Assembly (NCBI GenBank): GCA_028821455.1 | Contig: JAPPGE010000049.1 | Span: forward strand, 1-64,000 | Direction: 5' to 3' | Source: a bacterium | Lineage (GTDB): Bacteria > Pseudomonadota > Alphaproteobacteria > SP197 | Length of the DNA stretch: 64,000 nt | Part shown: piece by piece, positions 48,124 through 53,001 of the stretch | Position numbering within the stretch: the stretch's first letter is position 1 | Layout: the number at the start of each line of letters is the position of its first letter | Notes under the pieces: model-generated | The model's database searches: none | What the model saw: the letters and a program-made list of their open reading frames with translations, nothing else | Told to the model about the DNA's origin: nothing | Translations under genes and position numbers: made by a program

Positions 48124-48238
48124 TGCAACTCGCCCTCTTCACCCTGTCGGCATGGCGCAAGAGTAGGTTCAGGACCCGGGGCGATCAAGACATGGCTCTC
48201 CGGGACGTTACCGGGACATCCCCGGGCGAATCGCCATC

Positions 48239-48266
48239 TTGACGTAGCCCTTTAACCCTGCATAGC
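48239..48266 (+). promoter_or_regulatory. possible promoter of the structured leader
   Basis: TTGACG (48239-48244) and CATAGC (48261-48266) are 16 bp apart. The match at -10 is weak, but transcription from here would begin close to 48273, just before the first long stem of the structured segment. Inference. Confidence 0.35.
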
Positions 48267-48275
48267 CTTCCCCAT

Positions 48276-48540
48276 CGCCAAACACATCCGTGCGGCTCCA
48301 TGCCGGGCCGCCCGCCGCGATGCGGGAATCTTCTATGCACGGATGATTGTTTGGCGACCGGCCCGGCACCACGTCGGGCTGACCGATCGCCTGGAGCGGT
48401 CGGAACCGGAGGGCAATCCGGCTCCGACCAAGCAAAGGGGTCTCGGGGCAGCTGGGAGAGCGTGACCGAGACCCCACCGCTTCAAGCACGCTAGACGTTG
48501 CCATGCGTCCACTCAAGCACGCTCTCCCAGTGGGGGAGAG
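48276..48540 (+). promoter_or_regulatory. structured leader RNA with alternative helices before a glycosyltransferase gene
   Basis: This roughly 265-base gene-free segment is full of complementary arms. S1: 48276-48293 pairs with 48337-48356 (18 bp, two-base bulge). S2: 48383-48390 pairs with 48396-48403, in competition with 48398-48409 pairing 48418-48429. S3: GGGGTCTCGG (48437-48446) pairs with CCGAGACCCC (48466-48475). The loop of S3 holds CTGGGAGAGCGTG (48452-48464), the exact complement of 48518-48530. That second segment can instead pair with GGGAGAG (48534-48540), the Shine-Dalgarno sequence of the glycosyltransferase. This is the layout of a switch between exposed and sequestered ribosome-binding sites. 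It matches no RNA family I recognise. Confidence 0.55.
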
Positions 48541-48542
48541 AC

Positions 48543-49316
48543 GTGAAAGCCATCGTGATCAGTCTGCCGCACGCCCATGAGCGACGGAAACGCGCGTCGC
48601 AGCGGTTTGCCGAAATCGGTCTGTCTTTCGAATTCCTTGATGCCGTTGACGCGGGTGAACTGACCGACGCGGACATCGTTCGGATGGATGCGCGATACCG
48701 GCGCCGGTGGGGTCTTCGCCCTTTGGCCGCTACCGAACTTGCGTGCTGGCTGTCACATGTCCGCGCGATCCACCAGGCAAGCATCGGATCCGATGAAGTG
48801 ACCGCCATATTCGAAGACGACGCCATGCCTCGGCCCGAATGCACATCTGTGCTGACCGCCTTGGAACACTGTCTCATCAACTTCGATCTGGTCAGCCTCG
48901 GCCGAAGGAACACGACTCGGGCGCATGTTGACGTGCACGCCCTTGAAGCCGGTCGATCTCTCTGCCGGGTCCGGTTCAGTGAGTACGGCGCGTTCGGTTA
49001 CGTGATCACGAAAGAAGCGGCACTTCGCCTCGGTCCCCGCCTGACCCGGATGCGCGTCCCGATCGACATGGATCTCATGTTCTTCTGGGTCCACCGGCTC
49101 AACCTGTGGTTTCTCGATACGCCGGTGGTCGACCACGATGACGACGTGCCTTCGTATCTCACTGCCGACCGTGAACGAATGCTCGTCGGATGGAAACCTT
49201 CGCGACTACGTCGGATCGCCTACCGTCTACACATGGCAGTGGCCAAGCGGATCGGATTCCGGCGGCTCGTACAAGGGCGCTATGCGAGCAAACAGAAAAC
49301 GACCCGTCGCATATGA
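48543..49316 (+). CDS. glycosyltransferase family 25 (LPS glycosyltransferase-like)
   Basis: A 257-residue protein beginning MKAIVISLPHAHERRKRASQRF, the typical GT25 opening. LGCWLSHV-like TELACWLSHVRAIHQA, then AIFEDDAMPRPE (acidic metal/nucleotide-sugar motif) and AFGYVITKEAALRLGPRL follow. It probably transfers a sugar in lipopolysaccharide or surface glycan synthesis. The start is GTG at 48543, two bases after a strong GGGGGAGAG, and the ATG of the track ORF lies inside the leader structure. It overlaps the methyltransferase gene (ATGA). The pair is flanked by housekeeping genes on the other strand and may be an acquired cassette. Confidence 0.85.
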   Translation: MKAIVISLPHAHERRKRASQRFAEIGLSFEFLDAVDAGELTDADIVRMDARYRRRWGLRPLAATELACWLSHVRAIHQASIGSDEVTAIFEDDAMPRPECTSVLTALEHCLINFDLVSLGRRNTTRAHVDVHALEAGRSLCRVRFSEYGAFGYVITKEAALRLGPRLTRMRVPIDMDLMFFWVHRLNLWFLDTPVVDHDDDVPSYLTADRERMLVGWKPSRLRRIAYRLHMAVAKRIGFRRLVQGRYASKQKTTRRI

Positions 49317-50119
49317 CTCCCTTCCTCATTAGGAACTGTCCGCGTTGCGGCGCCGACAATTCCACCACACGCGTCCTTTCCTATTCCTGGCGGCATTGGC
49401 GTCTTCGCCACTGCATGGCGTGTGCCTTCGTCTACCTTGAGAACCCGCCGGACTATGCCGATCTGAGCGTGGACTACGCATGGGAGACGGACGACTACAC
49501 ACTACGCATGCGTCAGGAATATCCCTTCACCCGTCGAGTATCGCGCGGCTGGCGAAGGGTTCGCCGCCGGTTGATCCCAAGGCCCGATAAGTTGGCCCGA
49601 CGGGTTACCGCGCATGTCCCACCGGGCCGTGTGATCGACGTGGGTTGCGGCAGCGCTGGACACCTGATGGCGCTCGCGCCGCACTACATGATTGTCGGGA
49701 TAGAGATTTCCGTGGCATTGGCCGCCGAAGCGAACGCCCGTCTCGCCAAGCGCAACGGCACGGTCGTCAACATGCCGGCGATCGAAGGACTCGCCGACAT
49801 GGCCGCGGCCTCGGCAACCGGCGTGCTGATGCGTTCCTTCCTCGAACACGAACACAGACCCGCGACGCTGCTCGCCCAAGTGGCGCGCGTTCTCGCGACC
49901 GGCGGTGCCGTTGTCGTCAAGGTGCCCAACTTCGCCTGCCTGAACCGGCGGGTCATGGGATCCCGCTGGTGCGGGTTCCGCTTCCCCGGTCACGTGAACT
50001 ACTTCACGCCGACGAGCCTCAAGGAAATGGTCGAAGATGCCGGTCTGACGATATCGGCCTTCGATCTTTTTGATCGGTTCCCTCTGGCGGACAACATGTG
50101 GCTGGTGGCACATAAGTGA
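49313..50119 (+). CDS. class I SAM-dependent methyltransferase with N-terminal zinc ribbon
   Basis: A 268-residue protein. Residues about 8-45 hold two Cys pairs (NCPRCGADN and HCMACAF) forming a probable zinc ribbon. The Rossmann methyltransferase follows with RVIDVGCGSAGHLMAL, the acidic IVGIEIS strand and RSFLEHEHRPATLLAQVARVLATGGAVVVKVPN. This arrangement is common in methyltransferases of surface-polysaccharide clusters. It is coupled to the GT25 gene by a 4-base overlap, so it may methylate the same glycan. Exact acceptor unknown. Confidence 0.87.
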   Translation: MTPFLIRNCPRCGADNSTTRVLSYSWRHWRLRHCMACAFVYLENPPDYADLSVDYAWETDDYTLRMRQEYPFTRRVSRGWRRVRRRLIPRPDKLARRVTAHVPPGRVIDVGCGSAGHLMALAPHYMIVGIEISVALAAEANARLAKRNGTVVNMPAIEGLADMAAASATGVLMRSFLEHEHRPATLLAQVARVLATGGAVVVKVPNFACLNRRVMGSRWCGFRFPGHVNYFTPTSLKEMVEDAGLTISAFDLFDRFPLADNMWLVAHK

Positions 50120-50199
50120 GATTGGATTGCAACGCCCGGAACGGGCGGATGGCCCAGACAGTCAAAGTGAGACACTACCCCTCTGCGGGCTGGCGGAAT

Positions 50200-52774: not shown

Positions 52775-52831
52775 CGCGGTCCCTGATGAACGGGGCGGGA
52801 ATTCGCGCAACCGTTGGTGCAGCGGATGACT

Positions 52832-52923
52832 GGAAGGCCGGACTGACCCGGTTGAACACGCTACGGCTGCTTCCTCTCGGACCTGACCGGGTTCACGAGC
52901 CAATTCCGTCCATTCCGGCCCCC
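52832..52923 (-). ncRNA. ffs: 4.5S signal recognition particle RNA
   Basis: The minus strand reads GTGAACCCGGTCAGGTCCG followed by AGAGGAAGCAGCCGTAGCG, the highly conserved domain IV with the asymmetric loop and the GGAAGCAGC apical motif of bacterial SRP RNA. The ends pair: 5' GGGGGCCGGA with 3' TCCGGCCTTC (G-U pairs allowed), giving about 92 nt. The gene lies just upstream of dnaX on the same strand, its usual place in alphaproteobacteria. The RNA binds Ffh and directs membrane proteins to the translocon. Exact ends are estimated from the terminal helix. Confidence 0.93.
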
Positions 52924-53001
52924 GTCGGCAACACTAGCCGCCGTGGCCGACGGCACGCAAGCCTGATTGCACGACGACGGGCCTCGTGCGAACGTCCTTC
53001 C

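Follow-up and report, generated by a model that had tools for sequence, protein, structure and literature searches.

What molecule is formed by the mutually complementary segments that precede a glycosyltransferase family 25 (GT25) gene in the window (the whole 64,000-nucleotide stretch analyzed here, from an alphaproteobacterial genome assembly), and what does it do to the genes behind it? The original prediction read these segments as a cis-regulatory RNA in which helices compete for the ribosome-binding site of a glycosyltransferase-methyltransferase pair, and covariation among homologues supports this reading. We consider it quite probable that positions 48275–48540 form the leader of the GT25-methyltransferase operon, that this leader belongs to a new family of cis-regulatory RNAs, and that translation is governed by helices in its 3′ module that exclude one another. 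The features of the locus, several of them predicted from folding and comparison, are as follows:

48196–50193 (approximate), + strand: accessory segment between def and recR, holding promoter, leader, GT25 gene, and methyltransferase gene
48239–48268, + strand: predicted promoter, TTGACG (48239–48244), 18 nt, TAGCCT (48263–48268), recognized by a recurrent TTGAC box
48275–48540, + strand: whole leader, two separable RNA modules, preceding the GT25 gene
48275–48381, + strand: 5′ module (class 2), with a long stem, a small core, and a tail hairpin
48275–48357, + strand: stem P1 of the class-2 5′ module (48275–48293 with 48337–48345 plus 48348–48357), from the minimum free energy (MFE) fold and relatives
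48359–48381, + strand: tail hairpin CGGCCCGGC-ACCAC-GTCGGGCTG, from loop/tail complementarity in class-1 copies
48398–48429, + strand: hairpin A of the 3′ module (GGTCGGA-A-CCGGA ... TCCGG-C-TCCGACC), from aligned homologues
48437–48475, + strand: hairpin B of the 3′ module, 10 bp (48437–48446/48466–48475), a hairpin that recurs in homologues
48518–48530, + strand: switch strand CACGCTCTCCCAG, whose partner is the hairpin-B loop or, via 48522–48528, the Shine-Dalgarno (SD) sequence
48534–48540, + strand: SD sequence GGGAGAG, forming a 7-bp hairpin with a 5-nt loop with CTCTCCC at 48522–48528
48543–49316, + strand: GT25 gene, GTG start, first behind the leader (PF01755, E = 3.3e-20)
49313–50119, + strand: class I methyltransferase gene (PF13489, E = 1.8e-19)

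The likely start of the methyltransferase gene (ATG at 49313, a choice read from the sequence) overlaps the GT25 stop as ATGA. The segment carrying promoter, leader, and both genes spans 2.0 kb and is missing from two genus-mates (G005 and G006); there, the start of def lies ~80 bp from the stop of recR, with no GT25 or methyltransferase gene on those stretches and with both flanks aligning, so the segment is accessory in this genome, either as a gain in the window genome or as a loss in G005 and G006.

Chance does not account for the folding of the leader, since its MFE of −151.7 kcal/mol (z = −5.6) is equaled in none of 100 shuffles and since perfect complementary k-mers are in excess: 12 9-mers are observed against 0.25 expected, two 12-mers occur (a count found in 0 of 400 shuffles), and one 13-mer occurs (matched by 0.25% of shuffles). 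The competing helices that had been proposed are present. CTGGGAGAGCGTG (48452–48464) is complementary to 48518–48530 at 13 of 13 positions and lies within the loop of the 10-bp hairpin B, where its portion GGGAGAGCGTG occupies 48454–48464; CTCTCCC (48522–48528) is in turn complementary to the SD sequence at 7 of 7 positions, and the SD sequence ends 2 nt ahead of the GTG start codon. Upstream, the long stem (P1) is found where it was predicted and counts 19 pairs with a 2-nt bulge (48275–48293/48337–48357), enclosing a small core made up of the loop GCCGGGCCG and a second hairpin; the mutually exclusive upstream stems exist as well, the tail arm CGGCCCGGC (48359–48367) being able to pair either with the core loop or with 48373–48381. 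Elsewhere in the window lies a small SRP RNA (52829–52924, − strand; Rfam RF00169, E = 6.5e-07).

A search of the genus recovers three more copies of 48359–48546 in the genus-mate G001, none preceding the same gene, and a wider query finds the 5′ part by itself at other loci of G000, G001, and G006, ahead of exported-protein genes; the leader is therefore best regarded as two modules. Covariance models were built for each: R1 describes the 5′ module, and the 3′ module was modeled first as R2 and then as R3 (R3 included members found by R2, so it recovers those by construction, and only L131 and L122 are new to it). R1 has matches at 16 places in 4 of the 16 genomes of the order; of 385 genomes sampled from the class, 14 have matches. 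A 25-nt core pattern occurs at 59 loci in GTDB representative genomes, all of them metagenome-assembled (MAGs). We collected 67 distinct copies of a longer form of the 5′ module (class 1) and seven of a short variant (class 2), to which the window belongs; R1, although a class-1 model, also matches the 5′ module of the window (E = 0.005).

Across class-1 copies, the arms of P1 are 30% identical, compared with 73% for the 35-nt core. Arms nonetheless pair with their own partners at a mean of −26.3 kcal/mol, versus −11.5 kcal/mol when swapped, and the own arm ranks best in 44 of 52 nonredundant copies, indicating that P1 varies almost freely in sequence yet keeps its complementarity. The seven class-2 relatives (the window, L145, L146, L149, L151, L152, and L155) retain CGCCAAAC/GTTTGGCG nearly unchanged and vary in their inner arms, for which own pairing totals −105 kcal/mol against a permuted mean of −43 kcal/mol (p = 1/5040, no permutation being as good). 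Compensatory change in the upstream stem is thus found across homologues of both classes. In 34 chosen genomes, the class-2 pattern GTTTGGCGACCGGCCCGG has 12 matches and its reversed control none. Seven of the matches are the clear relatives just listed; three more (L148, L150, and L156) are probably fortuitous, and another (L153), beside an IS4-like transposase, is without the 5′ arm. The C51 match L002, 27 nt within a coding sequence, was likewise set aside as chance. The window and L103/L152 share the shortened core, and both also have the 3′ module.

Within the class-1 core, a GTCGGGYCG-type loop is complementary to a CGRCCCGRC-type tail in nearly every copy examined, with standard pairing alternatives (T:G/T:A and T:G/T:A/C:G) at two positions, and the tail has a local hairpin as its alternative to this pairing. 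A leader peptide encoded in the core was rejected, because the spacing of the conserved blocks shifts by single bases and no reading frame is kept. The P3 loop of class 1 is often a self-complementary tetranucleotide (AGCT, CATG, GATC, or GGCC, as in L004, L063, and L036), which could permit RNA dimers; TCGC and TTGC loops also occur. In L147, around position 1100, two 5′ modules stand in tandem, the first mixing features of both classes.

Which strand yields the RNA, and where does the transcript begin? Over 63 stems, 82 G-U pairs are seen against 0 A-C mismatches, an imbalance that indicates an RNA transcribed from the leader's own strand. A weak promoter had been predicted before the first stem; it is present, beginning 36 nt ahead of P1, and a strict sigma-70 consensus scan does not pick it up. 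A TTGAC box recurs 34 to 37 nt ahead of P1 in 19 of 54 nonredundant class-1 copies (shuffled controls: mean 0.3, maximum 3 in 500 shuffles), and this fixed distance suggests that transcription probably begins at the stem itself, with a predicted start near 48275, the first base of P1. The coincidence of predicted mRNA start and stem base, together with a stem that stays stable although its sequence changes, would also suit a leader in which a long 5′-terminal hairpin slows decay, or one on which an RNA-binding protein, an antisense RNA, or temperature acts, as would the frequent self-complementarity of the P3 loop. The core, however, is more conserved in sequence than a stabilizing role needs, and we regard this set of explanations as plausible without being probable.

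P1 can also differ between orthologous loci. L062 and L066 precede genes that are 95% identical and have cores that are 92% identical, but their P1 arms share 59% identity and are fully paired in each; L057 and L093 behave similarly (gene 88%, promoter 83%, core 87%, arms 55 to 67%, each fully paired). Other orthologous loci (L067/L068 and L042/L094/L097) retain identical arms. Both arms can evidently be rewritten between orthologues, and either diversifying selection or gene conversion may be the cause. Gene conversion between copies is suggested by L066, whose stem is in part similar to the stem of L096, another copy in the same MAG.

The 3′ module is known from nine copies found by successive covariance models (the window, L004, L008, L009, L049, L101, L103, L131, and L122), and it has no match in 398 other sampled Pseudomonadota genomes. 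Weak matches at L064:3416, L102, L104, L107, L108, L123, L124, L142, and L143 were discarded as intragenic or as having no loop/CTCTCC pair. The copies share a plan in which hairpin A is followed by hairpin B, its loop being of the GGAGAG type (in L131, GAGGGC), then by a strand that ends in CTCTCC, and last by the SD sequence. The inner stem of hairpin A changes from C-G to G-C and A-T and from G-C to A-T and is paired in 7 of 7 aligned homologues; the hairpin with the GGAGAG-type loop recurs in each of the eight copies outside the window, and the MAFFT alignment, which misaligns helix B between groups, did not show its 10 bp to covary over the full set of homologues. In eight of the nine copies, the hairpin-B loop pairs with the strand ending in CTCTCC, which is also complementary to the SD sequence; the partners differ, as GCGTG/CACGC in the window, GCGCAC/GTGCGC in L049 and L101, GTGCAC/GTGCGC in L103, and GCGCGC/GCGCGC in L131. 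L008 has a shortened partner pairing and no gene behind it. An SD hairpin is predicted in all eight members that have a start codon, with differing sequences (CTCTCCC/GGGAGAG, TCCCTC/GAGGGA, TCCCTCC/GGAGGGA, CTCGC/GCGAG, and TCTCC/GGAGA, among others) and with energies of −9 to −20 kcal/mol, values that look too stable for a simple RNA thermometer.

Compensatory change thus appears at both helices: own pairing exceeds permuted pairing for loop and strand (p = 0.0098) and for the SD hairpin (p = 0.0068), in tests on eight members, some of them close relatives, with segments cut by eye. These tests are modest and lend the two helices support that is not conclusive. The sequence of GGGAGAG/CTCTCCC is itself conserved, so that some of the base pairs are invariant. 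One copy (L122, 1501–1668) is a 3′ module with no 5′ module, right after the stop of another gene, suggesting that this module can act on translation by itself.

The mutually exclusive helices predicted at the SD sequence in eight members resemble the expression platform of a riboswitch, and a true riboswitch, in which the 5′ core or the 3′ module would bind a small molecule that shifts the pairing, is a narrower form of the explanation we favor. A conserved core set in a variable stem (73% versus 30% identity) and the presence of several copies in one genome speak for it, but what lies behind the copies does not. Class-1 elements end mostly ~20 nt (mostly 9 to 47 nt) ahead of the chosen start codon, in sense orientation, and 49 of 63 ORFs behind them look exported or membrane bound (25 lipoprotein-like, 24 other), by a crude sequence rule applied to ORFs picked by script, a few of them doubtful. 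Pfam assignments for 58 genes, the window included, give GT25 in five, TbpB-type barrels in three, and outer membrane protein barrels, thermolysins, and SNases in two each. Copies thus appear to lie mostly just ahead of exported-protein or GT25 genes. These genes are too diverse for a metabolite pathway to suggest itself: TbpB-like lipoproteins, thermolysins, GT25 enzymes, and nucleases show no pathway coherence, and there is no match to an Rfam aptamer. We therefore hold the small-molecule form to be a serious contender that falls somewhat short of likely.

At the gathering threshold, Rfam 15 returns no family for the window leader or for 16 loci with class-1 copies, and with E up to 10 there is still none (the best subthreshold match, scr5239 at E = 2.1, lies on the opposite strand). 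ARAGORN calls no tRNA or tmRNA in the window, and a tRNA-like phrase, AGCTGGGAGAGCG, was dropped as lying outside any tRNA call. Plasmids and phages gave no blastn match, viral contigs no match to the class-1 or class-2 pattern, and a search of open-licence literature no paper on such RNAs. We call the family new because it is absent from Rfam 15 and from the literature found; what is previously undescribed is this RNA family, with its build from two modules and a hypervariable P1, whereas structured cis-regulatory leaders are a known kind.

Where do such RNAs occur? All records whose origin was traced are marine-sponge bins. The MPM/MPN accessions are bins from Aplysina aerophoba (PMC5649159). 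G001 corresponds to MPMV00000000 bin56, of Alphaproteobacteria clone group EF100-94H03: the 5918-bp contig that carries the copies L008 and L053 has the same sequence in both. From this genus-mate we infer that the window bacterium is itself a sponge symbiont. The remaining bin names probably denote sponge sources too, in keeping with the existence of PMC8163846. The records are labeled, among others, as Alphaproteobacteria, Gammaproteobacteria, Binatota, Gemmatimonadota, and Bryobacterales, a spread behind which misbinning of single contigs is possible; Binatota-type copies come from several MAGs and have sequence traits of their own in common, and copies are also carried by G315 and by the single-contig genome G344, so the family may not be confined to sponges.

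Multiple copies scattered over MAGs of several phyla, a window copy within an accessory segment, and possible P1 turnover between orthologous loci could also indicate a mobile palindromic DNA element or recombination site (REP/MITE or integron attC-like) that precedes genes by happenstance. Such repeats, which had been named as what would overturn the original reading, do not fit the copies: these lie in sense orientation, end mostly ~20 nt ahead of start codons with a −35 box at a fixed distance, and have differing arms, when a MITE would have arm sequence common to its copies. Integron attC sites carry conserved core-site boxes at their ends and a variable interior and act as folded single-strand DNA; here, the interior is conserved and the ends vary, with G-U pairs but no A-C mismatches in the stems. 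We consider a mobile element very unlikely.

The favored reading, a cis-regulatory leader, draws on sense copies directly upstream of genes, a predicted promoter of their own, and structure kept through compensatory change in P1, the loop:strand pairing, the SD hairpin, and hairpin A. Comparison among copies supports the family, its strand, these helices, and the recurrent −35 box at its fixed distance; members apparently act as switches by which the ribosome-binding site is masked or laid open. Under this model, transcription would start at or beside the first base of P1, and the RNA would fold into the long P1 hairpin with its small conserved core, whose loop would pair with the tail CGGCCCGGC as a pseudoknot in competition with the local tail hairpin. 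The 5′ module would most likely serve as a signal sensor, a factor binder, or a protector of the mRNA 5′ end. With the strand CACGCTCTCCC paired to the hairpin-B loop, the SD sequence would be free (ON); with the same strand in the SD hairpin, translation would be OFF. A signal, possibly read by the 5′ core, would shift this balance, with the modules presumably in communication. Since 11 to 13 bp within the hairpin-B loop are sterically demanding, that pairing may form only once hairpin B opens.

More broadly, these structured mRNA leaders seem to make up a large family, not listed before, in sponge symbionts that have not been cultured, and the genes behind them (surface or exported proteins and lipopolysaccharide-type glycosyltransferases) are ones whose products should be in contact with the host. 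Should the 5′ module prove to sense a signal, it would give direct access to what the symbionts respond to inside the sponge. The family is also unusually informative about how RNAs evolve, because P1 is free to vary in sequence while its arms remain strictly complementary. The fullest version of this picture, a large two-module regulatory RNA family specific to sponge symbionts of several phyla, spread together with accessory cassettes for surface proteins and glycosyltransferases, responsive to a signal from the host or holobiont, and with P1 rewritten on both arms between orthologous loci, is one that we advance tentatively and think doubtful as a whole.

Among known systems, SD-sequestering translational riboswitches come close: they share with the leader a 5′ position directly before the start codon, exclusive helices, an anti-SD strand, and multiple copies, but the leader differs in its lack of an Rfam 15 match, its separable modules, its hypervariable P1, and its functionally unrelated downstream genes. 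Tandem riboswitches (reviewed in PMC9481103) likewise place two structured domains serially before one gene, whereas the modules here are unrelated to each other and are found separately elsewhere. Integron attC sites and REP repeats are also long, imperfect palindromes of variable sequence beside unrelated accessory genes; the leader is set apart from them by strand-specific RNA pairing, a conserved interior, a predicted promoter of its own, and a sense position 5′ of the gene.
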